A stretch of DNA of 64,000 nucleotides, from contig OY987237.1 of the NCBI GenBank assembly GCA_963920705.1, positions 8,462,601-8,526,600 of the forward strand, given 5' to 3'. Below the pieces are notes generated by a model. It searched no databases. It was not told where the DNA came from and worked only from the letters and a program-made list of their open reading frames with translations. This document shows positions 6,274 through 30,708 of the stretch, piece after piece (position 1 is the first letter of the stretch; the number at the start of each line of letters is the position of its first letter). The translations under genes were made by a program, and so were the position numbers. The stretch is from Odiellus spinosus (lineage: Eukaryota > Arthropoda > Arachnida > Opiliones > Phalangiidae).

Positions 6274-9200
6274 ATGGATGAAGAGGTAGATGAATCGGGT
6301 GATCTACCCTTATGTTCAAACACCGACGAAATCTTGGTTAATCATTATAAATTTCAATTGCAATGCGACATTGAAAAGAAAATGTTTTTCGGCCACGTAA
6401 CTGTGTTTTTAAACGCCGTAAATAATGACATTAATAAATTATGTACTTGCGTCAACGACAAGATTTCCTTTAGAAATGATCAGCCCTTTTTCTGCGTGCT
6501 TGATTGTAAAGACATAACGATTATTAGTGTTAAAGAAGTAATAACAATACACGAAGAAGGAAATACTACGCGACAACTTCGTCAACTCGACTTCAAGGTT
6601 GATTGCTGGTCGTTAAAAATATGGAAAACGGCTTCTTTTTGTCCTTTTTGTTTCCCAAAAGTTTTAGAAATAACTTATCAGACAAAAGAGATTGGTAAAT
6701 CATTGCAATGGGTGAAAGATCAAGACTTAAAGTAATATTTTCTTGTTTTCTAAAAGAGATGAAAGAGTTACTCTGTAAACAAGTTGTTTTTAAACGATTT
6801 GGGCTGTTAGAATATGCTTAAAATTCGCTAAAAAAGTAATTTCACAGGGCTAGCCACTTTAATGAAAAATATATACACCTTATTTCTGATTTTCGAAATT
6901 TCCTGTGATTTCTGATTCGCGATTTGTGATTTTTAATATTTCTTGAGATTTCTTTCTATATTTTTCAATATTTTCGTCAATATAAATTCTTAATATTTCC
7001 AATATTTCTTCTGATATTTCCATTATTACTTCCGTAAGTGATTTCTTGAAATACTTAAATCTATATCTCGCTAATGATTTCTTGCCCCTCGGAAATTTCA
7101 AATTTATTTCATAAGGACTTAATTGCTGATTCCAATGAGAGTTCGTCTTTAAAATGACGCTTGAACCGAAAGCTATTAAATTGGTCCATTTTATACGAAT
7201 TTTCATTGGCATCAGCAATTCCGCTTGTATCAGAATTATTAGTTTAAATTTCTTCAAATCCGATTTAGGCATAACCAATCCAGTTCGCAACTATTTGATA
7301 ATTAATTTTAAATTACCCCGGATCCATTGATGAGTATTTTAACAGTTCAAATCGATTAAAAATAAATTTTTATCAGAATCTTTGAGAGAGTTGTGGCGAT
7401 TTAGGAATTTTCCATATCCTCTTTCGTTTGTGCAGGGTTCATATGGTAATCTTTGAAAGCTGCTACGGAATATTATAATTAGGATTTAAATATTAGAAAA
7501 TCTCTGGAAAATAAAATAATTCCTAGTAATTATTTCCTGGAAAATTTTCAAGATTATCATAGTGACGTAAGTGTTACACGTTTCCACAGGCAGAAAGGAA
7601 AGCATCAATTTTGTAGCCTTCATAATGTTATCAATGATTATTAAAATCTTATAGAGAGTTTCAGAACCGATGGGGAGTTTATGAGATTGAAGTTAAGAGA
7701 TAGTGACGTTATCAAACAAGAATGGAAAAAATATATATTAATGCAAAAACTAAGATATTGTCCTGTACCAATTTTTCTCTGGTGCCAGGTAATACTGCAT
7801 AATCATCATAAAATATAACACATTTAAATTTTGATAATTAGGGATAACTTTAACACAAAACTTAATTCCAGATTTTTTGCAATTGTGGTCGATTCTTAAA
7901 ATTTCAAATCTCGCGATCGAGTTTGAGATATAAAATCTCTTTTGCGCCCGATTTACCAAAATTACGCATTTTATAGTCCTTCCCAACATAGTCTAGCTCG
8001 AGGAAAAACTTTAATAATTTCATTTCGTAACATATTTGACCTTAATTTTCTCCACATAGCTATTCTAAAACCAAAATTGTTTTTACACGAGTGAAGTCCA
8101 AGGTTATGTTGCCTATTCCATTTCATACTCGTGTCAGCCGCGGGGGCAACGTGGGCAAGCGCCCAAGCTCTGTTTACTTTACTAGCTATTATAATCATAA
8201 TAATAAAAACTTTTTTATTGGATAATCCATAAGATTAAAAATCTGGTGGGAACGTAGCTATATGGGGTAGAGAATTTTCAATATTTATAACAATTAAAAT
8301 TATCGATTAGTTTCGCAAACCCGTTCATCAAATCTACTGAATTTATTTGAATTGCCATTGTAAATTATAGTCGAGGTATCAGTTAAATGAACGTTTTCCT
8401 ATCCATTGAAATATCTCTTTCTTCTCGTATGAACCCTGACGACCCTGACGAGAATCGAAAATTCCATCCATGTCACAATTACTGAAAGGAACAGAAGTTC
8501 AACTTTTTATGTCGTGAATTCCTTTTAATTATACCCACGATTGTTGATTTGAATTAGACCTTGCGTCTATACTTACGGAGCGTGGATAAACAACAGGTCT
8601 TTATTTCCTTGCCAAGAACCTCCGAACGCCATGGCCACTTGGGAAGCCCGAATCAGAGTGGAAGAGTCGTTGACTGTACTCATGAGTGGTGACGAACATT
8701 CACAGACCTATCTAAATAATGGCGCGTATTATTATATTTAAATTAGGGATCATTCGAGGTATCCGACCTGGTATAAGTCACGGATCACCGGGTTTTCATC
8801 CTCAACTTGAGTCTGGTCGGAAATGGCAAATTTTATAGTCGAGTTTTCCTGAAAAATCAAACCCTTGAAAATATCACTTGATGCAAAAAACGTCAATCTG
8901 AGGTTCCTTAAAAGGAGAATGCAACCTAAAAACAAGTTTTTTTATCGTGTTCTTACCGATCCACCAGAAAATAAGTTTACAAAGAAATATTAAGCTAGAA
9001 ATCAATTTAAAATTTACAAACGGAAAATAGGCTTAGCTGGATTAATGGCGATCTTGTATTTCTTCCCATTAAAGGGTCAGCGACCAATCGAATGTTATTC
9101 GAAGTGTCAGGGAGTTTACGCCTTAACGAATGTCATTTGCTCATTGGCTACTGACCCATTAATTTGAAAAATTCAGAATATCCATGAATCCAGCTAAGCC

Positions 9201-12200
9201 TATTTTCCGGGTAAGATTTAAATTGATTTCTAGTTTAATATTTGTATGTTGCATTCTCCCTTTAAGAAATGCCTGCCTTGGTACTTCGGTCTTGTTAACA
9301 CCCGTATAATATATAAGAGCACGTATTAACTTTAACTTGGCATTATCTTTCAGGCATGAAAGAATTTTATTTTAGAACAAGGTCGGTTTTACCGATGTCA
9401 ACCTTAGCCATAGCCGTAGGACATTGGCAAGGAAAAACAATAGAGTAATTTACTTTAGATCGAAATGAACTTCGAAATTATAATTCAGCTGATGGGGATT
9501 TTGTTATTCTTTTGTTTTCAGAGTGAAAGGCAAATTAGAATGCAGATTGTTCGCGGCGAGTTCCTTACTAAACAAAAGCCTTGACGTAATTAAAATTTAT
9601 CAAATCTTTTAAAAAGTGGGTGAATATTTATATAATTAGATTTTTTTTAATAATTCGCTTTTTTTTAATAATTCGCTTTTTTACAAGAATATAGGTTTAC
9701 ATAGTTATTGTAGTTTATGTCTTGAGGTCTTTTCATATTAACAGAAGCCGATGAAACCCTCCTTTGAAGTCTATTACTCCCGAGTCTTGTCTACCCGTCT
9801 CTGTATGGGTTAGTTTCAAAAAGCGCGATTCGTACGCCTCCTAACAGTAGATATTTTCGGAGCGGGAGATCGTCCAGGGAATATCTCTAACAACCTTGGA
9901 GTTCGTCAACCAAACGTCGTCGTATGTGGAGAGAGAGAATTTCCAATTTTCCGTAGACGTATGAAGTAGGACCCCTCCGAGGCTCAGATCTCCTAAAATT
10001 GGGAATTTTACACATACAGAGAGGAGCGCTATATGGAACATTAGAGTACTTCAAAGGAGGGTTTCATCGGCTTTTGATATTATTTTCTCCAGATCTGTCA
10101 AGAAAACGTTCGTTAAAGGGAGAATGCAACCTAACAAGTGTTTAAATAGGCTTAATACACACAAAAAAATTACAAATTTTAAACTAGAAATAAATTTAAA
10201 GCTTAGAAAATTTAGAAAGGGGTTTAATGATTAAATATCTATTCACCCTTGAGTTAAAAACGTCAGTATTTACTTATCCATTTTCAATGAATCGAATTAA
10301 TTCATTTATTCAAGGCATTTTCCATTTACATTCCGTCTTGTATTGAAGCTACAACAAAACACATGGGATCATATCCATTTCCGAGGGTCGATTTTCTTAT
10401 CGTTCCTAGAGGTTTTGGAAGTTTGGGAATGGCTAGGTCAATAACACACGTGATTTTTCTAAATTACTTCTTTGTTTTTCTCAAACGTTTTCAACGCAAC
10501 TCCTCTTTGCGTAAAAGAAACTCGTTTGGTTATAATAATTATTAACTGTCGGGTATTTTTGACAATTACGCTTATATATCTAGTCCCAATATCGTCTTCT
10601 TGTCTCAATCGTGCGTGACTCGTGATGGAAGCATGAACGTTCGTTTGGCTCACGAATTGGCCCATTCTTGGTTCGGTCTCTTAATCGGAGCTAAAGATTG
10701 GACAGAAGAGTGGTTGAGCGAGGGATTTGCCACATTTTTGGAAGATGTTTTTCATACGACTGCAATGAATGTAAGTCTATTTTCTAATTCTTGGGTATCA
10801 CGAATACGCTTGATACTGACCCATGACTAAAAGTGCATTAATAAAAAAGTAACATTTCATGGAAACATAAGATCCCATTTTGAACTTTCTGAAATTCATT
10901 AATTAGTTTTTGGTATCGGTTAAACCATCAAGTGCCGCCTATGAGATCATGTGTTAAATTTGACCTCACAAAGTAAATAATGTACCTAATATATAATACT
11001 CCACATCCAAAATATTTAATGGAGAGAAATCCCCCGAAGCTAAAATAAAGACAAAATCCCACGCAATACGTTTTAGGATACTTTTTTATTTTTAAACCTT
11101 TGTGTGTTCCCGTCAAGGGTTAGAAGATGGGTACTTAAGAGCCCAACTGTTATGGTTATCATTTTCAAGTTAAAAAAACGAATATTTTTGCAACTGATAG
11201 TGGGATTTGTATTTTGGTGGGGGTATTTTGGATTATGTATGGGAGGGAGATTATGGCTGGGGGGATTGGGTTTGTATACCTAATTGTAAATATAATTGAA
11301 TCTTTACCCCGTTTACTAAATTGATATTTAGGCCAAATTTTTGATTTTTAATCACCGCAAAAACATATGTCGAAATACCAAGATATCAAAATGCTAATTG
11401 TTTGAATGTTTAATGAATTAAAAAGTGGGATGAATCGCTCTCGTCCGATTACAAGGAACTGCGTTGCTGGATTCGAGCGCAAACGTTACGAGCCGAAGTA
11501 GAAAACACTGCAGATGACCTTCAAACTCTTAGGTGTGTTGCCCAAAAGATTCTTGCTCGAAGTCATATTGTCGCCAATAAAGAACGCGCGAATTAAGAGG
11601 TCATTTACAGACCAACTAAAGGTCAAGATATATCGGCTCAGGTGGATGACATGGACACCAAAATGGTTAAGAATGGCATGAACACCGAAAAAGGTTTCTT
11701 ACAAGTTCATTACATAAAGGTAAAATGCTTAATATATTAAAACCTTATAAAAATATGTTTTCAGGGTATATTTTGAATATCAATGAAAATATGTCCTTCA
11801 TTTTTGTCTTCAAAATAATTGAAAATTTTTAAATCTAAATAACCATTTTTTCTTTCAGGGTTATTTCCTATTAAAGTATTTAAGCAAATTGGCTGGAGAA
11901 AACAATTTTATGGCTTTATTGAAAAATTACGTACAAATTAACAAAGGAAAATTAGTAGATTCAAAAGTAAGATGATTTTCTAAACTTAAAAACCAAATAA
12001 TTATTAAATTATTGAATTATTAATAATTATGAAATTTTATTAAATTTTCAAGGAATTTTTAGAATTTTTCTTTTCAACTTTTCCCGATATTAAGTACGCT
12101 TCTTTTAAAACTTTTATATATTATTTTAAAGTGAGACTATCACGGATTTTTCCAATTAGTTCCAAATGAAATTTGGTTAGCATTTCCAGAAAGATCGTTA

Positions 12201-13960
12201 AAGCCTCACTTTAATCATCAATTTCAATAATTAGGAGACCCTTTACTGTTTTAGGGGAGAAACGACTGAAAGTTTAACTAACGATTGGTTGGATTCACCT
12301 GGAATTCCCGAAGTATTATATTATATTAAGCTTAATACATTCGTTTTCTTAAACTGAAATCTATTCATTCAAAGTAGAGAATTTTAGAGAAAAGTTTAGA
12401 CAATTTAGATTAGCTTAATTCCATTCCTCTATTCAAAAAGGACAATGTTACATATTTTTAATCAATTTTAATAGAAATTACATCAAGTTACACCTTCAGA
12501 GAGCAACGCCTTATATCAAGAAGCCATCAAATTGGTAAGAATTTATTTTTCAAGCCGAATTAAAGTTAAAGATAATTAATGGTTATTCTCTATTACAGTC
12601 AAAAATCTTGCAAACGTGGCTTAAATGCCATAAAAAACGCAAAAAGAATTCAATAACAATATCTTTTCCGTCAATTGACATATCAAAGGTAAATCTAACT
12701 ATAGACTGATCACGTCGATGCTCAGTTTTCGATCGAAATCTCCCAGTTTTAAATGACTGTATTCTTTAATTTCATTTTGATCGAGAAGCATATAAGAAAT
12801 CCTACTTATTTATCGATTTCGTCAAGGAGGTCGATATCGAGAAACAATTTACAGTTAATTATCAAAGTTGCGAATCGAGACTCGAAGTAAATTAAGATTG
12901 AAAAAAATACAAATTTTCTATTGCCAATGAGAGTTCGTCTTTGAAAGAGTTTCAAATTGGTTCAGTCAGAGTTTTTAGGCAGTCTCTCATTTATCTCTCG
13001 AAATATCTTCTAAACGGATTTAGGCTTAGCGAATTCAGTTCGTAACTTTGATAATTAACTGTGAATTATCTCGAAACTTTTGGTGAGTTTTGATAACGTT
13101 TAGTGCCAATCGATTAAAAATAACTTGTTTTCAAAGTCTAGTATCCTTTTAAAGGGCCCGTGTGCGATTTTTAAAGCCCCTTTAAACTGGCCTTCTTTCC
13201 TTACTTATCAAACGACATTGACCGTAACCAATTGTACAGTCAATTCTAGGCTGTGTGCATAAGGAAAGATGTTTTTAAAGGGGAAAATTCTAGAGCAGAT
13301 AGTACCTTTAAAGATTATATAAATTATTACTCTACTTTATTGAGCTACTGTAAATTCCCACAGATTCAGATTCAAGAGCAGTTAGTCATTATATTGGAAA
13401 TTTTAATAAATCAAGAAGAAGCCATTCCATTTGAGGCTTTTAAAGAGATAAGAGAAAAAATATCAATGACAGATAAAAACCCAGAGGTGAGCAAGCCTAC
13501 AAAGATAAGATTTTGTCATAACTATATAACCTTAACCTGTGGAATTTTTAAATCTTAGGTTCGACATCGATGGTGTGAATTAATTGTGAAACACGAGATT
13601 AAACGTTACTATTGCGACGTTGAATACTTCATCGAAAATGATCTTGTAAGATATTGTACTTTGGGAAATCGAATTAATTCGCTTTAATTGAACAAATCTT
13701 GTCACGAGAGCAATGAATTGTACCTAACTACAAATTCGGGTTCTTCGTTCGATTTCTCACACTCTCAGATTGAATCCTTGAATTTTTCTAATTATTAATA
13801 AAATTCGATGATTTAGGCTATGGGTATTTACCTCTACGGAGAACTAATTAACTCAAAAGTTAACGCGCAAAGAAACTTGGCTAAGAAAAGTTTCCTTAAA
13901 CTTAAAAATGAAATGGAACCCAACTTCAATATTGAAATTAATAAAATGTTTAATTCATAA
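6274..13960 (+). CDS. AOPEP: Aminopeptidase O (M1 metallopeptidase), 16-exon gene
   Basis: Exons: 6274-6731, 8558-8688, 9354-9444, 9522-9585, 10315-10436, 10584-10770, 11426-11532, 11611-11719, 11859-11966, 12053-12093, 12255-12312, 12475-12534, 12599-12688, 13250-13486, 13559-13645, 13817-13960. They sum to 2094 nt with phase preserved, giving 697 aa (human about 819). The product is a zinc aminopeptidase. Zinc site HELAH (312-316) and Glu335 fit HEXXH-X18-E; Tyr421 in VHYIKG is the likely M1 transition-state tyrosine. The usual GXMEN motif is replaced by GSLGMAS (283-289), as in human aminopeptidase O. Other matching blocks are PCVYT..INNR.LFPCQEPP (exon 2), DWTEEWLSEGFAT (exon 6), VRHRWCELIVKH (exon 15) and MGIYLYGEL (exon 16), the last two in the C-terminal helical domain. 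The Met at 6274 aligns with the human start. Weak points: exon 2/3 junction, exon 10 donor (GTACGC) and poor pyrimidine tracts before exons 5 and 7. Confidence 0.88.
7100..7375. repeat. Family C repeat, degraded copy in AOPEP intron 1
   Basis: It shares CCAATGAGAGTTCGTCTTT, a GGATTTAGGC-like block, CAGTTCG.AACT.TGATAATTAA and TCGATTAAAAATAA, in the same order, with 12924-13145. It has no open frame. Boundaries are approximate. It is an old non-autonomous element by divergence. Confidence 0.55.
8912..9261. mobile_element. Family B TTAA-flanked foldback MITE, full-length
   Basis: A 350-bp element between two TTAA tetranucleotides (8908-8911 and 9262-9265). Termini are AAGGAGAATGCAACCTA and the inverse of AGGGAGAATGCAACAT. 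The two halves are imperfect inverted copies of each other; an internal pair AATAGGCTTAGCTGGATT / AATCCAGCTAAGCCTATT lies at about 9030 and 9190. It sits in AOPEP intron 2 and has no coding capacity. Confidence 0.8.
9742..10076. mobile_element. Family A MITE, copy 1
   Basis: A 335-bp element with terminal inverted repeats starting CAGAAGCCGATGAAACCCTC. It is flanked by ATATTAA (9735-9741) and ATATTAT (10077-10083), a 7-bp target duplication with one mismatch. It is in the same orientation as the copy at 30709 but clearly more diverged. It lies in AOPEP intron 4. Its short open frames are by-products and match no transposase. Confidence 0.9.
10117..10210. mobile_element. Family B MITE, single-arm fragment
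   Basis: TTAA (10113-10116) is followed by AGGGAGAATGCAACCTAAC and then the AATAGGCTTAAT and AACTAGAAATAAATTTAAA segments found in the other copies. The second arm is missing. It lies only 40 bp from the end of the family A copy. Confidence 0.65.
10584..10770 (+). CDS. AOPEP: Aminopeptidase O exon 6, zinc-binding catalytic exon
   Basis: This exon carries the whole zinc-binding signature, HELAH followed by 18 residues and the third ligand Glu in WLSEGF. The acceptor is TATATCTAG before 10584 and the donor is GTAAGTC after 10770. It follows exon 5 after a 147-bp intron. The split serine codon (AG + T) restores the SPNIVFLSQ block that corresponds to human SPHIMFLSQ, which fixes both splice sites. 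Confidence 0.93.
12130..12210. mobile_element. Family D TTAA-flanked MITE, short copy
   Basis: An 81-bp element between TTAA (12126-12129) and TTAA (12211-12214), with inverted termini AGTGAG / CTCACT. Internal sequence GTTCCAAATGAAATTTG and ATCGTTAAA is shared with the longer copy at 38399, so it looks like an internal-deletion derivative. It is inside AOPEP intron 10. Confidence 0.7.
12836..13145. repeat. Family C repeat with long inverted arms, AOPEP intron 13
   Basis: The arm at 12836-12875 (ACAGTTAATTATCAAAGTTG) is inversely repeated at 13038-13078 (AACTTTGATAATTAACTGTG). Sequence to the right continues to match the copy in AOPEP intron 1. Outer limits are uncertain. Confidence 0.6.
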
Positions 13961-14690: not shown

Positions 14691-14694
14691 AAGA

Positions 14695-14703
14695 GACCAC
14701 CCA
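14695..14703 (+). promoter_or_regulatory. Perfect Ci/Gli site 1
   Basis: GACCACCCA, the reverse complement of TGGGTGGTC, is the core bound by Cubitus interruptus/Gli zinc-finger proteins. The extended context AGACCACCCAAG is shared with sites 3 and 4. Binding is inferred from the sequence only. Confidence 0.5.
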
Positions 14704-15680
14704 AGTTGAGCTTATAGGGATTGGGATTCCTATCGAATTGCCATTATCTTCTAAAACCTTTTCTTTATCCGACGCTATCATACCTTAAAGCTTTGACCCT
14801 ACATATCTCATAGATCCTTCTAAATAAATCCATATTTTAGGTTTAAATTCATTTCCATTTTTTGTGCCAAAGGTGTAATAAAATATTAGATTCTTGAATG
14901 ACATTATACGTAATAATCTTTTAAATTTCACCTATAATTATTTTGGCCTCGAGTCTTCAAATGTATATTTTGTGGTTCAGTTAGGCTTAGCTTTAATATT
15001 GATCTGTTAAGATATATTAAAGGCAATATCTTCTCAAGAATCTGCCCCTTGCTAGGTTTTTTAGCAAATTTCGTCAGATAAGCTAGAAAAAAGGCTACTT
15101 TAAAGGGCTCTTTAAAATCGTAAATAGCCCCTCCAAATGTTGTTTGAAACCATCCAATTTCCATTGTGTAGAGATAAACAGCTGTTGAGAAAACAATTTT
15201 AGCGGCATAGACAATAAACAGGAGGGATAGCCTTTGTAGTGCATTGATTCATTCATCGCCCAAAACTGCATGACGTTTTTCTATATTTTCTATTGTTAAA
15301 AAGGTAGATTTAGAACAAATCTACCACGTGATTTCAATGGCAAAGAGGTGTCCTTGTGTATAATGTATCCATGTGAGACGTAAAAATCATTTATCGCCGG
15401 TTAGTTGTTGGCATACTTATGTTTAATTATTATACTTATGATCTCACTGAATATAAGATCGCACTTTCTCTTCCTTATTTAATCACTGGTTGTATTATTG
15501 TTTAAAGATGATTCCACTTATGTCTACACTAAAAATCTTAAAAAATGTTTCGACTCATGTCTACAATATATTCTTTAAATATATCTTAAAAAATGTTTCA
15601 GACTTGGCGCCGATTAAAGCGACCCTAGTAGGTATCGCCACCTAGCGGAATATTGTTTTTTAGTTTTGAATAATTGCCAT
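14704..15680. other. Gene-free stretch
   Basis: No coding or RNA gene seen. A partial direct repeat (AAAAATGTTTC...ACTCATGTCTAC-like) occurs around 15,500-15,600. Confidence 0.45.
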
Positions 15681-15689
15681 TTGTGTTTG

Positions 15690-16077
15690 AAGCGTGAATG
15701 AGAGCGCTTACAAGTGTTTCGCGAAGTTTTTTTTACGCGGGAAATCGGAGCGAGGCCGGTTGTTTTACGTAAATTTTCGGGAAACAGTATCGGATTTACC
15801 GTACCTCCTGGATTGGACGACGAGGCTTAATTATTTTATATTTTCGAACACTTTTACTCGGCGCGGCGTGACGAATTAGTTTCGCGAGCTCGGAAATCTA
15901 TTAAAGTTAATCTCTTCCCTTAACTAATCAAGCATAGCGGGCGCCGTTCCTTTGATCTTCGCCGACGGATTTTTATCTCAATCGTTCCCCTTACCCCCGT
16001 CGCTATTTTGGTGGCCGCCCGCGAGCCTCCCTCACGACCATCCAGTTGTTTATTCATCAATTAACTCGTAAACAGAG
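15690..16077 (+). promoter_or_regulatory. GC-rich island ending in a splice donor; candidate noncoding first exon
   Basis: About 390 bases with dense CpG in an AT-rich surround, ending ACAGAG then GTAAGATT at 16078, a strong donor. The only sizeable frame (15694-15879) stops well before the donor, so a transcript from here would begin with a noncoding exon. It lies between Ci/Gli sites 1 and 2. It could be an upstream alternative patched promoter, the promoter of an unseen gene, or a noncoding RNA start. Confidence 0.35.
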
Positions 16078-16485
16078 GTAAGATTACCATACTTTCGTAT
16101 TCTAAATTTTTCTAATCGCGGTAATCTCTCGCGTTAGTTAAGACTGTGTAATTTCGTAAGTAGATTTTTGGGTTTAAGCCCAGACTCGGGTTAAGGTAAC
16201 GATCTTGTCAAGATTTAAATAGCCACGGAAGCTCTTCCATTCCACAGGGGACACTTTGAGGAAGTAGAAATTAAATGGTTACTAGAAAACAGCGTGCAAC
16301 ACTTGTGCCAATAATTTGACTTAGTGTAACACCGGGTCAAAAGTGTAGCACTTTTGAAGGCAATGGTTTCCCACTAGTGTCAGTCAAAAAGGGGAAGCTT
16401 GTGCCGCGCGATCGCGTGAGTTTTAGCTCGCCAAGTTTTAAATTCTGTAATATCAAAAATTAGGCTTATCAAAATTTCGTATTAG

Positions 16486-16488
<3 letters not shown>

Positions 16489-16525
<37 letters not shown>
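16489..16525. repeat. Poly(T) tract, 37 bases
   Basis: An uninterrupted T run. No SINE body or target duplication was recognised next to it. Confidence 0.9.
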
Positions 16526-16954
16526 CTCCCCCGATTGAATCATTGGGTAATGTAAGGGAGATGAAATGAGTTTTTTTTAATATCGACCAAGACTATTTTA
16601 ATGAATAGTTCCTTCTACTTCTATGACATCTACTGTATATCACAAATTATCGAGTTCAACGCGTGTTGCGGGGATATTCTCAATCCAAAGGTGGGGGCAT
16701 CTTTTGATTACTCTGAGGTTCTTTTAATTGAATTATGCCAAAAAAAAAACGCTTAACGGGAAAACCTTAACGTAAGAACGAATAATCTTGAAAATAACTC
16801 AACTTCGATCGCGAAAACAAGTTGTCATAATTGTTGCGTAACTGTCGTGGCTCTATGGACCATCTTGTTAAAATAATAATAGACATTATAAGCGGGCGGG
16901 TACGGAAAAACCCTAAGTATTCAAATATACAATAATCATTTTTATCTATTTTTG

Positions 16955-16963
16955 GACCACCCA
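16955..16963 (+). promoter_or_regulatory. Perfect Ci/Gli site 2
   Basis: GACCACCCA in the context TTGGACCACCCAAAGAG, in the same orientation as the other three sites. Binding is inferred. Confidence 0.45.
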
Positions 16964-18874
16964 AAGAGAAAGGGGGATGAAAAGCTATAGTTTTTAACGT
17001 ATGTCTCTTTCCGTTGATGTCAATGTGTGTTTTAAATGATTGTTCGGTCATTTTTTATTTCAAGCAATTAGCCCCCTAAACTAATTGAGAAACATTTTAT
17101 CTCCATTAGCATTGACAACGAGTTATATTAATTATTATAAAATTTTCAAGAGGGATGTCACCATTTTCATCTAGGGCATGGTATTTTCATACAATTCATA
17201 TTCAAAGTTGTATTCTTTTTGAGAAGCTTCAAATACAATAACAAGATATGTATTTCTCTATGAACAACTGTTTGTCTGTCTGTCAATCAGGAACGATAAA
17301 GTGTCCACGCGACGTTATTATATCTGAAGCGAATTAATACATAATGTTAAACTCCATTGGGAAAAAGTAGTCTTTGAAAACTCCCCTTGAACACGAGTAC
17401 AGAAACGCTAATTTTTATTGCAAACGCCTGGGTTTAATTACAAATATTTATAGCGAATTAATTGCTTAAAAATTACATGTGGCCCATTATTTTTTATAAA
17501 AAAAATTATTCTAGAATTTTAATTTAAAGGGACAGGCTTTTGAATTTATTATAAAAATCGGCTCACAAAACTACGGGTAAAATATTTCCACAATTTTAGT
17601 CAATTTTTTAGCGCTTAATTTAAATTCTAGATTTTAATACACTTTAATTTAAGAGACAGATTATTCTTTCTCTAGTTAAAAACTATTCAACCCAGAGGTG
17701 TAAAATTTTTAATATGGATTTTTGATAGTATGAATAAACTAAAAATTAATTGCATTACATTCCTTTGCCATTCCCTAACAAATAAAAACCCGAGATTGGG
17801 ATGAGTAACTATCAAATACAAGTTAAATTTCGTTCAGATATCAGTGGGAAACCTTGCATTGTCTCCAAAAGTGCAACATTTTTGCCCAGTGTTTAACACA
17901 TAATAAAAACTATTGGCATCAGATTCTTTTTTAAACTGGAATCTATTGGCCAGTGTTTTTTAAAGAGTGTTACACTACTCAACCCAAATTGAAAGTAGGG
18001 GGAATTATCAGTGTCACGAAAAAAAAACTAGCAAGTTAAACAAAAACCTGAAGTTAAAACCTTTAGCCAACACTAATTACACAAATGAAACAATAAAATT
18101 TGATGAATCGCGTATCAAAATGTAAATTTCTAAATGTATTCAAATATAAATTGGAGTTTTGATACTGCTACATGTGTGGAGGGTAGTGTAGGCCAAAAGT
18201 TTATTATTGGGAAAATAAACCATTTTTATTTCGTGGAAATTGGAACACTGGGCAGCGCTACAACACCAGCAACGCTGACTTTGGATAGCCCGAGAGGAGC
18301 CAATGGTTTTCCACTATTTAAAATAGCCTTAGATCATTTCAATATTCTCTTTTCTTCATTTTTTTCTTTCAATTCACACCCTCTAACAACAACACCAACA
18401 AAAAAAAAAAAAAAAAAAAAAAAAAACATTTAAAATCAAACTTAAAAGTTTCGCTCGAATAATTTTTACCAAATTGAAATTCTGTTTCGGCCGAACAGTT
18501 TCGTGTCCAAAGATAATCGTACTCTGCCTATAATCCATCCTCCCCTTGAAATTGATTACGATGCGTCTTCGAAAGCTATCGAATGACCCTACAATTAATT
18601 TTTTCGTTTTTTATATACATATATATATCAGTTCCGAGAAAAATATAAATTAAATAAAATTTTTTTTTTTTCGAAGGCAATGCCTATTTTGTGATTTACA
18701 ACGTGGTTTTTGATTTCCCCTAGTTCCAATCATTGGTAAATTTAGCTCTTAAGCCTCCCCCCACCTTTCTTGGGTTTAAGTTATAGTTTAGATGAGGCTA
18801 GGAGAATGAGTGGGGGGAATTTAGGAGGGGTAGGGACGTCTCTAGCGGGAGAAGTGTATATATCTCTTAAGATA
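16964..18874. other. Gene-free stretch with simple sequence
   Basis: No gene recognised. It holds an A27 run at 18400-18426 and a TATATA-rich patch at about 18,620. The open frame 18134-18433 runs into the A-run and resembles no protein. Confidence 0.45.
18400..18426. repeat. Poly(A) tract, 27 bases
   Basis: A run of A preceded by AACAACAACACCAACA. No retroposon body is recognisable upstream. Confidence 0.85.
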
Positions 18875-18883
18875 GACCACCCA
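18875..18883 (+). promoter_or_regulatory. Perfect Ci/Gli site 3
   Basis: GACCACCCA in the context GATAGACCACCCAAGTAGA. Three of the four perfect sites fall within 14.7-18.9 kb. Binding is inferred. Confidence 0.5.
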
Positions 18884-20366
18884 AGTAGAAATCGCGATAT
18901 CTCAGGCAATGGTGTGCATACTCCGCAATTAAGGGGTTCCGCTTTTTGGAGGCGTTCCTCATGAGCTCCGCGACCGAGAAAATATAATTGTCCCATCATA
19001 AACCTCCCCAGTTTTGTATGATAATATCGATTTAGGTTTAATGTAAAATTGTTTTTAATTCTCTTAAATTAAAAGTAAAATTGCGTTCATGATTCCGTGG
19101 GTTGTTTTGAAATTTAAAAATTCTAGATTTATAATTGATTAATACATTTGAATATATGTCGAAGCGTTCGACGGAGTTGAAATGGTTATTCGGATAGTTT
19201 GGTCGATACCACTTTGGTGTTGCACTATCAATAGTTTCTTAGTTCAATTTTATGCTTTTTAAAAGTTTAATTTTCACCAATTGCATGTTTGTTGGGTTAA
19301 ACTTGTAGCATCAGCCCAAAGTATCATTAAGAAGGGGCGCGAGCCCCTGGACCCCAAGCAAGCAGGGGCATCCCAGGTTACCAAACATCACAATTTGGGG
19401 ACTCAATTCAATACTTATGCGCCCCTCCCCCTCTCGCGATATTGATCTTAATCCAGCAATATTTCAGAAGACCTATTCACCCCTATTCAGCAAAATTTAT
19501 CAAGTCTCACCTGTTTACCCCTATTCAGTTCAGCTCTCTGGAAAAATAGAACCTTACTTTTTATGCAATGCTCCGAAAATAATATTATATTCTCTGTAAT
19601 GGTGCTCAAGGTTTTTCCAGAATTTAAGTTCTAAAAGCATATTTTTCCAAACAAAGTCGTGAAAGAATGACAAGTTGGGAAACCAAAATATTACCTCCCC
19701 GACAAACCTAACCGAATCTAACCCTACCTTAAATAAATTAAAATATGTTTGCAGAGTATTGGAAGAAAACATTGGTGATAACGATCTATGTTACAGTGCA
19801 TAAATACTTATCACACTAAACTTGAATAATCAGAGAATTAAAAAAGGGAGCCATGACCTTTAACCATTATTTTATGTTATAGGTCCTAGGCTCATTTAAG
19901 TTACACAAAATAAAAACCACTATTTATTTTTGAAGTAAATATGTGGTAATTAGTCACTGCTGGATGGACACGTGGAGTTGGCAGTAAGGTGGTAGTGAAC
20001 TGATCAATCTTGGCCAAGTTGGTTACACACCTTACGTGGTTCCTTTTTGGCATATGGTTGTTTCCATCCCACACACGGCATTCTACACTTTCTTTGCCTA
20101 GGTCTAAGAGACTTACTATTTTCATATCACGTGACATCCGGATATCCGCGAACACTGGAAGTTTTAAATGATTGACACACACATTTACACATACAGATAT
20201 GACCAGTATAAAACCTTCCAGTTGGGGATGTAAAAAGTATCTATATACGAAAGGAATTATTAGCCATTTGATGTTGCCAAATTTATTTCGGTATCACAGC
20301 GCGATTTTTACGTATGGTTAAAATTATTGGCGAGGTTGAAGGTTAGATAGATCCCACTCGGAGCTA

Positions 20367-20369
<3 letters not shown>

Positions 20370-20397
<28 letters not shown>
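20370..20397. repeat. (GA)n microsatellite
   Basis: About 14 uninterrupted GA dinucleotides. Such tracts can bind GAGA-type factors, but nothing here shows that. Confidence 0.9.
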
Positions 20398-20400
<3 letters not shown>

Positions 20401-20820
20401 AGTCATACGCGGAACGATCTCTGCCAATTGATTACAAGCTCCTATCACATTCATTAGGTTCAGCTTCTGGTTATTGGTATCGTAAATTCTTTCCCGTAAA
20501 GGTCCTGGTTCGAAACCATTTGAGGTCGTATAACGTCAAATTCTTAACGTAACCCTTGGCTACAATTCTTCTTAAGGGGGTTATTTTTTATACTTTTTTG
20601 ACGTACGAGATACTTATATTGAAGTATTACTATAGATTCTTTGGGTTTTTTCTTCTCAAAATTAACTATCCCCTAAAAATCTATACCACAAAGATTTAAC
20701 TTGCGAGGTTCCAGGAATGCAACTGGTTTGCATTAGGTATGAAGTTAGGCTTTACTCCATCTTTATTTTAAAGGAAGAATGGAACATAACGAGCGTTTTT
20801 TATATCAATTCCATTTCATT

Positions 20821-20948
20821 AAAATAGGCCTAATCCACCAGTAAAAAATTTGCAAATAAATATTAGAAATGAATTTAAAACTTACCCGGAAAATAGACTT
20901 AGCTGGATTCATGGAGGTCCTGAGTTTCTTCCCATTAATGGATCAGCG
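20821..20948. mobile_element. Family B MITE, internal fragment
   Basis: It matches the left-arm interior of the other family B copies: AATAGGCCTAATCCACCAG, then TTACCCGGAAAATAGACTTA, GCTGGATTCATGGAG and TCTTCCCATTAATGGATCAG. No TTAA-bounded ends remain. Confidence 0.65.
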
Positions 20949-23900
20949 TACAGAAAATTTCCTAATTGACGCAATCTTATAAAATCTAACCAAAGCCAAT
21001 TTTGTTAGTTAAATAATCATTAAGGAATAGGCCACTTTTCACTATTTTAATTGGTACAAATTAAGCTCAATGTATAGGTTAACGTAACGAAATGTAACCA
21101 TGCAGCTTAGTATATACGGCGAGCTAGTAGCTACAGTAAATATTTGCTCTTTTTTTCAATCAACTATTATGCTATTATAGACAGAATAAGAAATTTCGTC
21201 AAAAATAACCAAATTTATATTAAATTCAATTATTAGTTTAATTGCCGTTTCAAATCGTATATTTTTGGATATTACTTTCTTGGAGTTGTTCCGCAAAACC
21301 AGTCTCTCGATCGAAAGATGGAATTTAATATGGTATATTTTAAAGGGATACTTAAAAACACTCTTACAAGTTTATATTTTTAATTTAGAGCCACCCTATT
21401 CTCTCTCTCCTCACGCGGTGTGGGGGCTCGTTCCCTATTTTTATCCCCCTCAATTTTCCCATAAATCTTAAGACTTTTTTCCCGCGCCTTATGAAGAGGG
21501 CTACCATTTTGCCCGTTCTCCTTAGTTCCGCCCCCAGTCCACCATTTTTGTCACCAAGAAACGAGGTGATAGTTTTTTTTAGTAGACATTAGTAGAGCCA
21601 CTGCGGTGGAAAGATCTAACGCTGGAGATATTTCATACTGGTCTCCCTCACTCCCCTAGAAGACTCTCTAGTTTCCACAACACAAACTGTATAGTTGCCG
21701 AAACTCTATCTATCGTAGTTTTAACCTTAACAGTAGTACCTATTGCGTCGAAAACACTTCCTGAGTGCAGGGTTACCAAAACAATCTTTCGTTTAAGATG
21801 GCGACCTTCAATTTAAGGCGCCGCAAAAAGTCTCTAGCGTCCTCATTTGAGAGACCATTGGTGCCATTTTAGAAAAGATCCAAACCTATATGAGCGGCTT
21901 TGTCACGAAAATCACGCCTCATTGAATGGCTACTTTGATACTTACGGTCATTAACAATAATACAAAGTAAGCAGCTGCCCATGGACTCTGAATATTTTGG
22001 GGCCTCGAAGGGGCCCAGAGAAAATCATTTTCTAAAAATTTCAACGGATTTGTTAGATTTTATGTAGAAAACTCAAATTTAAAAAAAAAAACTTGTGAAT
22101 TTAAGTATCACTTCAAAAAGTAATGTATTTGGCATTTTCATTAGTATGGTGACAGCCCGGGGGTCCGTGTAAGTAAAGCAATAAAATTGTATTAATTCCC
22201 TCCCATCCAATTTTGTTTCTAAATTACCAGAGAAACAATTAGATAACCGAGATCATCGAGAAGCTATAAATCGTGGGAATATCTCCGGGGCAACTAATTA
22301 AAACATTTTATTAGTTTGTTTTTAAATCATATATCGCGTATCGGGTACGAACAATATTAGTTTATGGTCTAATTTAGCATAATTTATTCAAAGAAAGAAA
22401 CAAACATCGTGGGCCTTTGGGTACAACATTTATACCTGTATTTCTCATTCCATAATTTTATAATAATATTTTAATTATTTATGGTATTATAAATTTTAAA
22501 CCTATAAAAACCTGTGCAAATCTCAAAACGATTGAATGATCAACAGGTAATGGGAGTCGTAGTCGCATTCTACAAAATATCTAAGGGGAGTGGCTCACTT
22601 ACTATCCGCCTTTTTTTTCTTTTTGTTTTCTTTAAATTTCCTTGAAAAAAGTTTAAAACAGAATCAATAATCATTAGTCTCCGAATTAATAGGGCATATT
22701 TTTTTGGCAAATTAATCGAGTTAGAGCCGCACTAAAGGCCCCCGAGCCACGAATAGACTTCCAATCCAGACTTTTTCTCAAACCGTGCTCGATTTTTGAA
22801 TAATCGCTCTATTGGACGATAACATCTTAATCGTTGGTTCCTAATAACAGGCTTGGACCCAGATATTTTAAAATAAAATAAATTAAATCGAGCTGGCGTT
22901 CGACCCAAATTATGTACTCGTGGGAATTAGGTAATCGTCTTTTTCGAATTAAGAAACTTAGATGTTATCAACGTATGAAATTAATACGAAACACTATACA
23001 TCTTTCAAATATTTGTTCTCAGCCGCGTCCATCTCATGATGCTTACGACATGTTGATTTATATAGACAGTTAATTTTATAGAATATAACAAGGCTAATTA
23101 TAGTTAAAAAATTAAAATACGTATGTTCAATTATGACTATATAACATTTAAGCTACGATCACACTAGCATTTCTTAATCGCTTTGAAACGGTAAAATTAA
23201 ACCGATATTCAAATCGCCAGGAATCGTTTTAAGCGTCACGTGTTCACGCATTATCTTTATAAATCGATTTATTGTAGCTTTATCTATCGGTTGTTGAAAC
23301 CCAATCGGTATGAGCTGTTTCCCGAAGCATGCAGTTTCTAGAAATGAGTCAGATTGATTTGAGAAAAGACGTTTTCCTGTTCACACGACTCCAGTGAAAC
23401 ATTTTGAATCGGTTTAAATCGATTCCAAGATCTAGTATGAACGCAGCTTTATTAAATTGAACTGCGTTCATCTTCTTCGAAAGTCGTATACAAAACAAAT
23501 AATAAAACTATCCATAAATCTTAGAATATCTCGAAGTAGGCACGCGTGAACTCTGTGAAATTTAGGGTTAAATGTTACACGATGCTGTATCGGATAATAA
23601 CCGGGGTGTCACGCAAAACCGACGGTATGAAGTAATTAATCTATTTTTGTCTTCGGAATTTGGGAAACAACCTTCGACATCTAACCCCCAACTCGAACGA
23701 GTAAAAAAATTAGAGAAGGCGTGAGAAAATTGAAAGACACTATATAGGCTATCTGCGCGTATCGTTCTTGTGGGAATTCCATATATGCAAAACGAAACCA
23801 CCACCGTAAACCCATACCACCCTCAACCACGTTGGTTATGTACTGTTGCAGTCATACATAGCTGTATCAATATCATTAGTAAATGACAATCTCCTGTGAG

Positions 23901-24116
23901 TTAGTGAGGTCTTGTACAATTACCAGCTGGTGTTAATAATCGTCATCTAACGGCAAACATTGGCAAAAGACTTAGTAACTAACAAAACCCAAGTCCGCGT
24001 GTGCCTATTCTATATCCACAGAAGCCACCAACGAGATTTTTTTAGTAACTAATTTTGCCACTGTTTTCCGTTTGGAGACGCTAATGAACGCTATAGGTTT
24101 TGTTATTCACTTTTAT

Positions 24117-24452
24117 CAGAAGCCGATGAAACCCTCCTTTGAAGTCAACTACTCCAATGTTCCATATAGCGCTCCTCTCTGTATGGGTAAAATTCACAAT
24201 TTTACGAGTTAGAAGGGGTCCTACTTCATCTCCCCTGTCTACGGAAAATTGGAAATTCTCTCTCTCCACAAACGACGACGTTTTTGGACGAACTCCAAGG
24301 CTGCTAGAGATATTCGCTCGACGAACTCCCGCTCCGAAAACATCTACCGTTAAGAGGCGTACGAATCGCGCCTTTTGAGAATAACCCATACAGAGAGGGG
24401 TAGACAAGACCAGGGAGTAATAGACTTCAAAGGAGGGTTTCATCGGCTTCTG
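24117..24452. mobile_element. Family A MITE, copy 2, inverted
   Basis: A 336-bp element flanked by a perfect 7-bp duplication CTTTTAT (24110-24116 and 24453-24459). It is in the reverse orientation to copies 1 and 3. By eye it differs from the reverse complement of copy 3 at only about 7 positions, so both are young. Confidence 0.93.
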
Positions 24453-24960
24453 CTTTTATATATTAAGATAAGTGTGCATTTTTAATAGTACTAGGTGAGG
24501 TTATGACCGTATAGCACCAAAAATTAAACTGAATTTGAATTTATTTTCAAAAATTGCTCCCAAAATTAGAAATATTTTGCAGTTTTTTGGTGGTCATGTT
24601 TCGTTGAATTTAATTTAATGCAAAAATCGGACCAATCGTATTAAGTTTGCCTTTAAAATTCTATTCTAAATTTCGGTTTTGGTTGGAAATTATGAAAATA
24701 AACTGGAATTCCATTTTTAATTTAATTTCAACATTCATTTTAAATAGTGAAGTTCGATATATGTAGCAGGGGAATGAGTTACGGTAGTTGATGTTGTCTC
24801 ACTTTCATTTATTCTTTGCTTGCTAATGCCCAGAGAGAAATTTTTAAATGGACTAGATACATATAGCAACAAAATGTGCGTTGCTATTTCACAGGGCATT
24901 GTTATTGTCTCACGCTATGTCAAGGATACGAGTGAGGAGGTCTAGGGTAAGATTTATCCT

Positions 24961-24973
24961 CCCCCCCCCCCCC
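24961..24973. repeat. Poly(C) run, 13 bases
   Basis: Thirteen C in a row. A second C12 run follows at 25126-25137 and another C13 at 41573-41585. Such runs are unusual in a genome this AT-rich. Confidence 0.85.
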
Positions 24974-25944
24974 TCACCTTTCTCCTTCTAGCTTCTAGCG
25001 GTCGAGAGCGGTAATGATCGGGGACCACACAAGACGCTTCCACGTGCCACAAACACCAACGAGCATGCGCGCCAGATAGCTATAGGAACCCCCGTCGCCA
25101 AAACACAACTTTCTAAAAGATTAAACCCCCCCCCCCCTACATCCTCCACCAGATTTTTTTCTTATGATTCTCTCTGAGAATTAAACGCGAAACCGAAACT
25201 AGTTACTGAGATTTGAGATTTTGTGACTTAGTTGAGTTCAGACTAAACTATGAAACTTGATGGTTGTAAAGTTTGGAAGGGTTGTTTTGTTAATTTTCCG
25301 TGTAACTATAGATCGATAACGTTCGATTTGACAAGTAATATTTATGGAATTTTAAGGCTTATTGGGTGCCTAACATAAAAAACAAAATATTCGCAACTGC
25401 TCAAGTTCAAATTTGGTTATCTATATTCCTTACCTGTGTTCCGACTATCCGTTTTTCTTAGAAGGTTTATCATTTTGTATCAATCGCCCTCATCCAGTTG
25501 CCCTTGAAGCGTAATATAAATTCTGAAACAAAAGTTCATAAGAATAAGTTTTAAAACATCGAATTATAAATAAAATCAGTTTGCAAATCTTATTCCTCAC
25601 TGATTTGATTTTTAAAGTGAGGCTATCACCATTTTTTTCAACTGCATATATGTGTTCAGCTATATCTTACTATTAAAACGCCATGCCCATATTCAAAATG
25701 CTCCACCTCTGGGTTGAGGCGTTTTTTAGAAACTTTAAATGAAAAACTATAGTTGGAAAGTTAATGTGAAAATATAGTATTTTTTTTATGAACTTTCAAT
25801 AGGTCCCAATGATATAATAAACGTGATATATATTATTTAAAATAAGGCCTACAGCATCCACAAACATTTGAAGTTGGTTGCTATTTTACTCTTGTTCGAG
25901 TTGTTCACGAATAGATGATAATATAAATTCTGACTATACGTCCC

Positions 25945-26152
25945 AACCTTGAAAAAGGCAACATCTTCCGTAGAAACGGGTTCTATTTAACGGCTATTTT
26001 TGTTATTTCAAGGCTGGAAAAAGTATAGAAAATTCTATACTTTGAACCAACCTTGAAAAAACGTAACATCTTACATACAAACGGGTGTTTTTTAACGGGT
26101 ATTTTATCTGTTTCCAAGATAATAGAAATGTCTATTGTCCGAGCTGTGGCTG
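25945..26152. repeat. Diverged tandem duplication, about 104-bp period
   Basis: AACCTTGAAAAAGGCAACAT at 25945 recurs in variant form (AACCTTGAAAAAACGTAACA) at 26049. Both are followed by ATCTT(C/A)C..A.A..AACGGG, then T-rich sequence, TTTAACGG(C/G)TATTTT and a TTTC(A)AAG block. Confidence 0.65.
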
Positions 26153-29100
26153 CTTGATTTACGATCACAAGAGAGACTTTGAAACCGTTTTGAATATGTT
26201 CAAATATATTTTTTAAGTTAATAACATAATTTTGTATTTATTTAGTTGACCCTCAAATGTTACAGTATGACCTTTCCATAACGGTTATGCTAAACTTCAT
26301 ATCTCCAACATTTACCTTGAAAATATTGTGCTTTAACCCGGGGAGGGGGGGTCATACCAGTGCTTTAAGTGAATGTGTCATTTGTTAAAATATGTACTAA
26401 TTGAGAATCAATTGGTATCTTTCTTTTCTAGCTATAATGAATCGGGCTGATTCGGTATTCAATGTGGTTTACAACAAGATTGCAATCATCGTGGACGTGT
26501 GACTTACTACAACAATAATTGTTCATCAGGTACCGTAAAAGTCTTCAATACATATTCGTATAATATTAGGAATAGGTTATATTGTGTTAATTTTTATCTC
26601 GCTTATAACGTATAACCTTTTGATCCCGCGAATTTGATTTCTTATCCGAAATATTAAACCCGATGGGTTGCGCGGGTTTCCCAAATGCCGTTACCACCCG
26701 CGGAGAAGAAGCGAGGGAAAAAAAATATAAAAAACTTTGTAGGATTTTTGTGGCTGTCTTTTGAGGCGTCGCGCTTGACGGGCTTGCGACCCTACGGAGG
26801 TCGTGGCCAGGTCGAAACCGTGTGCCACTAAAAAATAGAAAGAGAAAGGTTACCCGAGAGAGCTAGCTGCTGGGAAGAGAGAAGTTTAAAAAAAAATAAC
26901 AAGATAAGTAAGACCACATATGAACCACCCTAAAATGAAGGATGTGAAAATCGGAATTGGCAATTCAATATGATCAATTATAATAATACTTAAGAATTAA
27001 TATAAAAGCTACTTTGCACCGTAAAAATGTAGTCATACGCCCGAAACCAACTTACGACGGCTAGCTTGATTTAGGACCATGTTCCATTGAGATACTCGCA
27101 TTCCTAATGAAATTATTTATCATATTATTGGGTTATTAATTTGAATAAGTCAATCTAAAATCTCGAAGAGTAGTCTGTGTAAGAAGGTTTTTCTCGTAAA
27201 GAACTAAAACAAAAATACTCAGGAACTCATTCTAAAATTTTACTTCTTCGTTGGAAGTAGTTTTGTGTTTTTGACGTATTTTCACACGAGATACTTCCTC
27301 TTTTAACAAGATAGTGAAGTTACGTAAAACGTTCTATATTCTCCTAATTCACGATCATTTTATCGTCCACTACACTACATAAGAGTCAGATAGCAAAAGC
27401 CAAAAAAACCTAAGTTTCTTTTGGGGTTTAAAAACGCGTTCGTTTCGACGACAGAAAAACTTTGGATATAAATTTTCCCATCTAACGAGGATCTCTCTCT
27501 CTTTCTTCTCCATCTATTCCCGGACTCCCAAAATCTCACCATCACCTCTCGCTCGCTCTCTGTATTATTTTTTCCCAAAAATCCCTGGAAACGTTTTTTC
27601 CCCAATGGCCAAGGCTATTGAGCTATTCAATTTTGAGATGTTGCTCTTATTATCGGAATAATGCGTCAATTGAAAGACATGGGAGAAGTATAGACGGTGG
27701 GAGTAGAGTTTCGGATTTTTGTTAGTGCTTTCATAGACGCGATCAGCTTGAAATTGCAGCACGCACAAACCTATGACATCTCTATCTCCAAGGAAATAGA
27801 TTGTAGAGATAAGAGGAGCCTTTAGCTTTGTACGTTGCGAAAACTCAATTTATTCTTAACTATAAACGGCCAGGGTGTCCCGGATGTCATCTCAATGCCG
27901 GAATGTTTGAAAAACGTGATTTTCCGAACGGAGTCGAGCTTTACACTGTGGGGTGCACCGTGGTTTATGTTAGTTTAAGGGTGAGAATGAAAGACTGCCA
28001 CAACTTTATATATATTTTTTTCATGCTCAATTTTTATGTATTTTCATATACATTCCTTTTTTTCTCATGGGGTTATCATCAGTCACGCTTATCTAGTCTT
28101 AAATCGCCACAAAATGTGGGTTCCGGAATTTCGCAAAGTGTTACAAATAAATTTAAGTTCCTTTAAATTCAGGAACTTGCTGGACAGGTCATGCTCTAAA
28201 AACAATACTAATAATGCTGGAATGGCCAAAAAAAATTAAAATTTATATTTTGATTACAAAAACGAACCCTTTACGAACTTTTGAGATTTTACGCGGTTTC
28301 GAACTGTCCCAAATAACTTCATCTAAATGCCACTTGTCCCATGAAATTTGCTTCCTGATTATGTAACGATTATTTAAATACTAATTAAGTTACAGAATTT
28401 TATAAATTGTAACATTTAAGTTAGTAAACGGGGATATACTATTAAGATAATTCATAATGTTTGCACCAAATTTGATGGCAAATTTGTCAATTTTCACACA
28501 GGTTACCTATAATTGAAACCTTGCAATTAATTCCCATGCGATATGATAATTCGTTTGAATGTGCACCTCATAATTACAATTCTTCAGCATATATTTTCCA
28601 AATTTAAACAATATTTCCATTGAAGTCTATCACACTTAAACCCGGTCCCAATTAAGCCTTACATTTTAAAATTATGCTAGTATTATATTTTTATTTGAAA
28701 TTTAATTTTGAAGAATGTTATCCATTGAAAACTTGTTCTTAATTAAAACGAATTCAAGTAAATCTTCAAAATTATACCAATTAGTATCTAGCAATTACAT
28801 CAAAATTGTATGAAGTTCTAATACATCTCACGCATCTATCTTCACTCTGATAAAAGCTATACCACACTGCTTATGATTAACAAAGACGTGTTAAAAAGAT
28901 TTCGACCATCATGGCTTTCTTCAAAAGTGTATACCCCATCAAATCAAATGATAAGTAACCCACCAGAACCTCTACCGAATCCCATTCGGGACGCGCACAT
29001 TTGGGATTTCACTCTTATCTCAACCGGGGCCCAATTTACACATTAGTTCCCTGTAGCTTGACTTTAACAACTGCGTATGTGAACCCTTCTTTCCAAGGCA

Positions 29101-30459
29101 GTGTGTTGTGTCCCAATGAAACGGGACCGACAAAGTCCCTTCATGTGAGAGGCCTATATTTTACTAAATGACTCTCATTCGTTATTCTATATCGGCTCGA
29201 TTTTCCCCCCTCCCACCCCCGGAAACGAAATAAAGATATTTCTTTAGAATATTTATATATTTTCTTTTTCACAAATGTTCTTTCGCTAGAAATTTCTTTT
29301 CTTATCCGATCACACCTACGTGTCAAGTAAAATGTCTTCATTAACTGGAACGAAAAGGAATAAGAAGTGAAACTACAAAGGAACCCGACGTACCCGGCGT
29401 CCCGCACGCCAAATGTTCAATGGGGGTGGGAGAGGGAAAGAGTCTTATTAATCGGTTTACACGCCCGCCAAGAAACTGTAGTTTTTTTATGGTTCATGGA
29501 GGGAAAATGAATGAAGTTAAGGCTGCATTATTTGCTAGTGTATTATACTGCATGGGTTGGGTTATATATTTCCACTTGTCTTCTTCAATTTGCATTGAGT
29601 TCTTCTATTTGGTAATCGTTCTTCGGTTTATCCATTGGCAGAGTATGATTAAAAGTAGTGCAGAGTTTTGAAACCATTTCCACAATCCGCATGATTGAGA
29701 TTAACCTCCAGGATTCAGATTTATCTATGAATTTCAGAATTCTCTGAATAAAGGGTTCATAAAAACCTTGAAATATCAGGAAATTTTAATATTGAGGAGC
29801 AAAAATCATTGAAATATCATTGAAACTCTATAAACTATATAGAACTTTAGAAGTCAAGGAAATTTATTGAAGTACCTCAATCACCTAAATTCATTATATT
29901 TATTATGGTTTTTAAAATCAATTAGTGCACCAATTGCTTCTAATCCAGCAGTCTCTCTCAAATTAGCTCCGCAATCTCAATTACCATCTTCTAGGAAGAC
30001 CGCGTAACTACTAGCCTATTCTTACCGAAAATAATGATCCATTAGCTAATCCCACATTCAAATTTAATACGGCTAATCCATACGAATACAACTTTTAATT
30101 AATTCTGGAAGTTCAGTTAGTTTCTCAGTTTTCTCAATTCCCCTTAGCGTTGTGCTCCTTCCTACTTGCTTCATGAGCAGAATAAATAGGCGCGGGCGAA
30201 ACCGCGTTCGATCCGCTTCGTCTTCTCCCTCTCTTTCTCTCTGCTCCGCGTTCCGATATGAGGATGAAGAAGTGAGAGAAGACGTTGAAGGAAAAGAAAA
30301 AAACTCTCAGAAGATGGAGAAGTTAGAAGATGATCAACCCCCAACTAAAGGGAAGACCGTAGCAAAAGAGGGGGCTAGAATGAATGAGGGGAGGATTCGG
30401 ACGACTGCCTCGACTCTGTGTATACGTTCACTGCTGCCGCCGCCGGAGAAGTCGGATAA

Positions 30460-30468
30460 GACCACCCA
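30460..30468 (+). promoter_or_regulatory. Perfect Ci/Gli site 4
   Basis: GACCACCCA in the context ATAAGACCACCCAAGAAG, in a locally GC-richer patch about 20.8 kb upstream of the patched start codon. Binding is inferred. Confidence 0.5.
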
Positions 30469-30708
30469 AGAAGATCTTACTAATAGGCTGGGCTAGCCAC
30501 TGCTGGCCGCTTTCTAACCACCCCAAATCTCTCATTTAAAGGGAGCCCGAAATAGAAAATTAAGTCATTTTATTCCAGTTCTATTTACCCTTATAGTATA
30601 ATCTGAACTTCTGGATTATTTAAAAATTTAGATATGTATGATACGAAGCTAAATTTAAAGATAGAAATGAAAAATTAGAGCGCGACGCTTTTGGGGAATT
30701 GGTATTAC

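Follow-up and report, generated by a model that had tools for sequence, protein, structure and literature searches.

The stretch of Odiellus spinosus DNA analysed in this study (64,000 nucleotides, C15:8462601-8526600 on contig OY987237.1, called the window below) is part of a 443-Mb genome (443,074,358 bp; 286 contigs) and contains the start of the gene patched (ptc). Eight strong sites of the type bound by the zinc-finger protein Ci/Gli were found in it. We believe that these sites, four copies of the 9-mer GACCACCCA and four of its variant GACCACACA, are probably direct Ci/Gli binding sites that regulate ptc, and we give this reading a probability of about 0.7. The informative unit extends beyond the 9-mer, and one rare word of this longer unit links ptc to engrailed, a gene that was not chosen beforehand. 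The sites are as follows (window coordinates):

14694..14710, + strand: long Gli-type site AGACCACCCAAGTTGAG; the identical 17 letters occur twice at engrailed
16954..16970, + strand: Gli optimum site GGACCACCCAAAGAGAA, without the AAG of the long form but with the GA at its end
18874..18890, + strand: long Gli-type site AGACCACCCAAGTAGAA; the identical 17 letters occur once at engrailed, within a 26-bp match at 92%
30459..30475, + strand: long Gli-type site AGACCACCCAAGAAGAT; it fits GACCACCCAAGNNGA but lacks the final R and ends in T
25023..25031, + strand: GACCACACA, Gli variant 7A
41899..41907, - strand: GACCACACA, Gli variant 7A
49990..49998, - strand: GACCACACA, Gli variant 7A, 1.27 kb upstream of the start codon of ptc
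52761..52769, + strand: GACCACACA, Gli variant 7A, inside ptc intron 2

An exact search of both strands confirmed the four GACCACCCA copies that the initial annotation had reported on the + strand at 14695, 16955, 18875 and 30460 (36.6, 34.3, 32.4 and 20.8 kb upstream of the ptc start codon), and none was found on the - strand. All four match the Ci/Gli optimum with C at positions 4 and 6, which are important in the Gli site (PMC4692483, PMC2830928), and none of the repeats found within the window overlaps them. The excess holds against 100 dinucleotide shuffles of the window, in which the word occurred 0.13 times on average and once at most. The whole genome contains 1101 copies (585 forward and 516 reverse; 1079 for the reversed word as control), which gives 0.159 expected per 64 kb and a P of 2.3e-5 for at least four copies. 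The initial annotation had expected 0.1-0.2. About 0.16 windows of 64 kb with four copies are expected by chance in the whole genome, so that it is chiefly the identity of the gene, patched, that makes GACCACCCA alone surprising. Ranked by over-representation, the word is 29th of the 131,072 canonical 9-mers in the window, and several of the higher ranks are simple repeats. The common orientation of the sites, which had been taken as a signal, loses its weight: four of four on the same strand occur by chance in 1 of 8 cases, and the strands of the engrailed copies are +, - and -.

The variant GACCACACA, with A at position 7, also has four copies in the window (25023+, 41899-, 49990- and 52761+). 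Its genome-wide number is 652 (366 + 286; reversed control 859), or 0.094 expected per 64 kb. Combined, the two words make 8 strong sites in the window against 0.25 expected (P 3e-10). On a PTCH1 reporter the variant equals or exceeds the consensus (PMC2830928). It was noticed in the window before this published activity was known, and it should therefore be regarded as a supported test, not a pre-planned one. In zebrafish, a GACCACACA bound by Gli2a lies in intron 2 of ptch2 (PMC3828767), and intron 2 of patched also carries one here, as a candidate site; the coincidence of the same intron may be chance.

The 12-mer AGACCACCCAAG had been fixed beforehand by the initial annotation from the window alone. 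It was described as a longer core of three of the four sites, and the three copies were found at 14694, 18874 and 30459, within 15.8 kb. The whole genome has 28 copies (19 forward, 9 reverse), compared with 16 (7 and 9) for the reversed control. At the rate of the rest of the genome (0.0036 per 64 kb), the P for three copies in the window is 8e-9. Another three copies lie within 50.2 kb on C7 around the engrailed homeodomain exon. Among the 25 other copies so tight a triplet has a P of ~1e-4 (20,000 simulations), and it is the only AGACCACCCAAG triplet in the genome besides that at ptc. The C7 exon encodes a homeodomain that carries the C-terminal signature of engrailed (Pfam E 9.1e-23 and 9.8e-21; the PDB match is engrailed). 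This signature was found in one gene genome-wide, at C7:8522978-8523070; in many insects engrailed and invected adjoin. A weak search, with short peptides as queries, revealed no further engrailed exon in the 25 kb upstream of that with the homeodomain. The concentration of the long form at ptc and engrailed fits both genes as direct Hedgehog targets. A AGACCACCCAAG pair 61 kb apart on C15 (15.79 and 15.85 Mb) fits chance (P 0.08).

The explanation that the 12-mer is part of a dispersed repeat was rejected, because it has just 28 copies in 443 Mb and the alignment between copies stops where the element ends, except in one 26-bp pair.

How far the constraint extends was judged from longer words. 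Exact AGACCACCCAAGTNGAR has 5 genome copies, all of them at ptc or engrailed, a count that stands without a control of its own; with up to two mismatches there are 147 copies versus 149 for the control. GACCACCCAAGNNGA has 9 copies (control 5), and 6 of the 9 are at ptc or engrailed. The remaining three are at C3:14150959, C6:4114541 and C13:883524, where no gene could be named by eye from the open frames of 10-kb stretches, with no family scan made there. The TNGAR and NNGA extensions come from the combined ptc and engrailed copies themselves, which makes the 5/5 and 6/9 counts partly circular; the AGACCACCCAAG result is not. The same circularity applies to GA at the NNGA place (6/6 ptc and engrailed copies versus 2/22 other 12-mers, P 7e-5). 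G at position 14 was present in 7/7 ptc and engrailed sites versus 1/11 others (P 2.5e-4), a comparison that omitted three sites (L029, L030 and L031 position 5001) fetched for carrying G14; when these are included, the others become 4/14. Two of these places are worth recording. On C3, 87 kb separate a AGACCACCCAAG at 14064386 (L003) from the long-form 15-mer at 14150959 (L031), and L031:9834 carries another GACCACCCA. At C13:883524 (L030), a solitary AGGGAGACCACCCAAGTAGAC has a 5' flank identical to that of a human GLI probe.

The genome also contains a protein that could read such sites. A Ci gene at C7:22.803 Mb encodes zinc fingers 77-84% identical to GLI1 over three pieces, and in the alignment no difference from human GLI1 is seen in the recognition helices of fingers 2-5. 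The published GLI-binding probe carries AGACCACCCAAGACGAA (PMC6098004). This human probe (PMC6098004; PMC5794963) fits AGACCACCCAAGNNGAR, as do 5/6 of the long sites here, the sixth being 30459 with its final T. PTCH1 BS2 is an essential human site, whose flanks were read from primers in PMC2830928. The flanks are AGAGA/GGTAG, compared with AGAGA/AGTAG at one engrailed site and AGATA/AGTAG at ptc 18874; the site differs in being two letters off the AAGNNGA extension, and GACCACCCARGTNGR is the form meant to take it in. The likeness of flanks is modest: for six ptc and engrailed AGACCACCCAAG copies against ten others, P was 0.03 with PTCH1 BS2 and 0.01 with the probe. P values from random flanks disregard the choice of site and were not used. 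Both human sequences were assayed in vitro or in reporters (PMC6098004, PMC5794963, PMC2830928). C at position 14 aids affinity (PMC2830928), with an ambiguous strand in that source: read as opposite G14, 4/4 window sites agree, and read on the same strand at offset 14, 0/4 do. PMC8266077 was set aside, because GACCACCCAAG occurs there only where an artificial reporter made of repeats ends, and PMC7417190 contributed nothing decisive. In the openly licensed literature, as far as its text was available, no description of a long site common to engrailed and patched was found, which is not proof that none exists.

Direct control of patched by Ci/Gli is textbook knowledge. It is documented in flies and vertebrates, and named sites that can be tested are now added in another arthropod genome. 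The candidate Ci sites are spread over the 37 kb upstream of patched, its promoter region and its second intron. We infer that Ci would bind them and act on ptc: under a Hedgehog signal the activator form would raise ptc transcription and the signal would be dampened (negative feedback), and in its absence ptc would be kept low by the repressor form. Three of the distal sites have the long form (GACCACCCAAGNNGA), which outside ptc is concentrated at engrailed; in flies the engrailed family, too, is a target of Ci. We also suggest, tentatively and with more doubt than belief, that a 15-17-bp Gli element (GACCACCCAAGNNGA), isolated and remote and of almost double the length of the textbook 9-mer, marks core Hedgehog feedback and segment-polarity genes; the human GLI probe shares all of it and PTCH1 BS2 part. 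If this were true, Gli fingers 2-3 or a constant partner would read the extension, and GACCACCCAAGNNGA, with nine copies in 443 Mb, would be rare enough to find direct targets by search alone. One 15-mer search could then list core Hedgehog targets, which the 9-mer cannot do, since its 1101 copies are about as many as those of its reversed control.

The gene was identified as patched by its second exon, as the initial annotation had named it. The coding features in the window are as follows:

51263..51403, + strand: first coding exon of patched, start codon inferred
51576..51767, + strand: second coding exon of patched; PTCH1 match in PDB, E 9.2e-20
2977..5418, + strand: hormone-sensitive lipase exon, left neighbour
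6118..13948, + strand: M1 aminopeptidase gene, neighbour, traced by fragments, with the M1 domain in open frame 10546-10827

Exon 3 of patched lies outside the window, at window coordinate 67099. The aminopeptidase trace is weak at both ends: the first exon scored just E 0.11 in Pfam, and the last, C-terminal trace (13820-13948) had E 0.02, below the curated cut-off. The region before patched had been described as 37 kb free of genes. From the aminopeptidase trace (13948) to 51240, Pfam scans of all six frames, made in three chunks, gave no domain, so that no recognisable gene separates the sites from patched; the scans are blunt, and small exons may be missed. "Gene-free" here means no recognisable domain and does not prove the absence of exons, because ptc exon 2 itself gave no Pfam match. 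Rfam (gathering thresholds) and ARAGORN (bacterial code) gave no match in the window. The ptc start codon at 51263 is overlapped by an 11-codon upstream reading frame (51234-51266, ATG to TGA), and TATAAATAG stands nearby at 51152. To the right of the window, downstream of ptc exon 3, a long repetitive stretch with giant repetitive open frames occupies C15:8549060-8554831.

The three left-hand sites had been proposed to form one compact Hedgehog-response enhancer at 14.5-19.1 kb. This proposal is weakened, without being excluded. The three sites are ~2 kb apart over 4.2 kb, and three of four random points fall this close together 4.4% of the time. Relaxed Gli sites have a density of 0.87 per kb at 14.5-19.1 kb versus 0.95 per kb across the window, and within 500 bp of each left-hand site no other relaxed (near-consensus) Gli site was found. 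Homotypic Ci clusters span about 0.3-3 kb (Table 1 of PMC4692483), and the left-hand sites do not form one. Because these sites are isolated and relaxed sites are no denser around them, the case for a single 4.2-kb enhancer is weak, although clustering is not strictly required, as orthodenticle has one site (PMC4692483). Several solitary remote elements would be likelier than one enhancer, in keeping with the many modules of fly and mouse patched (PMC4887206). What stands of the initial proposal of Ci/Gli sites at patched are the published optimum words, the identity of the gene and the excess over shuffles and genome rate; the co-orientation and the compact enhancer are not supported.

Drosophila is among the closest comparisons. 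As here, fly patched has optimum GACCACCCA sites and more Gli-dependent elements upstream and in introns (PMC4887206; PMC4692483). In the fly, three optimum sites stand together near the promoter, whereas here they are solitary and 21-37 kb away, and the strong site nearest the ptc start codon is the GACCACACA at -1.27 kb. The first four clusters in Table 1 of PMC4692483 are ptc -0.6 (mean score 1.000), inv +16.8 (0.941), Sox100B (0.920, inactive) and inv +18.6 (0.903), so that 3/4 belong to ptc or an engrailed relative. The Ci-responsive intronic enhancers of Drosophila invected contain strong Ci sites, and the engrailed-family gene here carries candidate ones. In invected four sites lie within 1.2-1.3 kb (PMC4692483), whereas engrailed here has three solitary long sites over 50.2 kb.

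Several observations weigh against Ci/Gli control of ptc through these sites. The variant GACCACACA also resembles what we take to be a RUNX site. At hh, ci and seven Wnt loci, neither a AGACCACCCAAG nor a long site occurs within 250 kb. The cluster of optimum sites that Drosophila has close to the promoter (PMC4887206) is missing here. Optimum sites can repress in embryos, and optimising two sites lowered enhancer activity (PMC4887206), so that an optimum site need not be active. Of the top Ci clusters 4/17 were active, though of those at known or suspected targets 4/5 were (PMC4692483). Two fingers account for all base contacts of GLI except one (PMC2830928), which does not obviously explain a constraint of 15-17 bp; a partner or a different protein may be required for the added length.

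The loci compared with the 28 AGACCACCCAAG copies and the 15-mer at C3:14150959 were hh, ci, Zic, a Glis-like gene (labelled by likeness to GLI1 alone), seven Wnt and nine Pax places; dpp and roadkill were not sought. The Pax3/7-like places on C6 had neither a AGACCACCCAAG nor a long site within 250 kb. Besides ptc and engrailed, there was a single match within 250 kb, C7:10973388, at a distance of 62 kb from a gene of Pax type that is unlike gooseberry by eye.

The best rival to Ci is the Zic protein Odd-paired (Opa), which opens chromatin at segment-polarity genes and might be the main reader of the sites. A Zic gene is present at C8:11.95-11.96 Mb (best PDB match ZIC3, E 5.8e-57), the very GLI probe cited above was also used to assay ZIC3 (PMC6098004), and the fly elements that depend on Opa and are opened by it include regions of en and ptc (PMC7190358). 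A GLI sequence that shares this core is bound by Zic2, but less well than by GLI3, and Zic2 prefers its own sequence to the GLI one (PMC5794963), whereas the core here is the GLI optimum. We regard this explanation as fairly unlikely.

It is unlikely, too, that the 15-17-bp word is read by another long-reading protein (zinc-finger, Polycomb-recruiting or insulator) common to ptc and engrailed, with the Gli core incidental. The constraint does exceed the length of the Gli core, and engrailed is a Polycomb target. Fly ptc also has a Polycomb/Trithorax element (PMC4887206). However, the GLI probe has the same extension, and GACCACACA, which lacks it, is in excess as well. All copies have the Gli optimum as core, which also speaks against it but follows by construction.

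Chance, in the sense of a 9-mer excess picked by a reader who knew the gene, is favoured by the ~0.16 four-copy windows expected in the genome, the near-equal count of the reversed word and rank 29. It is very unlikely, because the engrailed triplet was found with the pre-fixed AGACCACCCAAG and a second variant, GACCACACA, is also in excess. The aminopeptidase gene has its traced end ~0.75 kb before 14695, but that the three left-hand sites act on it instead of ptc is hardly credible, since 30460 and the GACCACACA sites are far from it and we know of no Hedgehog link for the M1 aminopeptidase family. Mapped ptc enhancers of fly and mouse, moreover, all lie in a single domain whose 5' boundary is remote (PMC4887206).

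Repetitive elements in the window were recorded separately. An element of ~340 bp, resembling a miniature inverted-repeat transposable element, has inverted ends of ~36-48 bp and occurs at 9736-10082, 24114-24455 and 30700-31050, and also in L029, L030 and L039. Its copies are 88-98% identical and contain none of the Gli-type sites. The 9-mer GTTACACTA has seven window copies versus 0.38 expected, and a tandem array with a period of 23 bp occupies 39294-40143.

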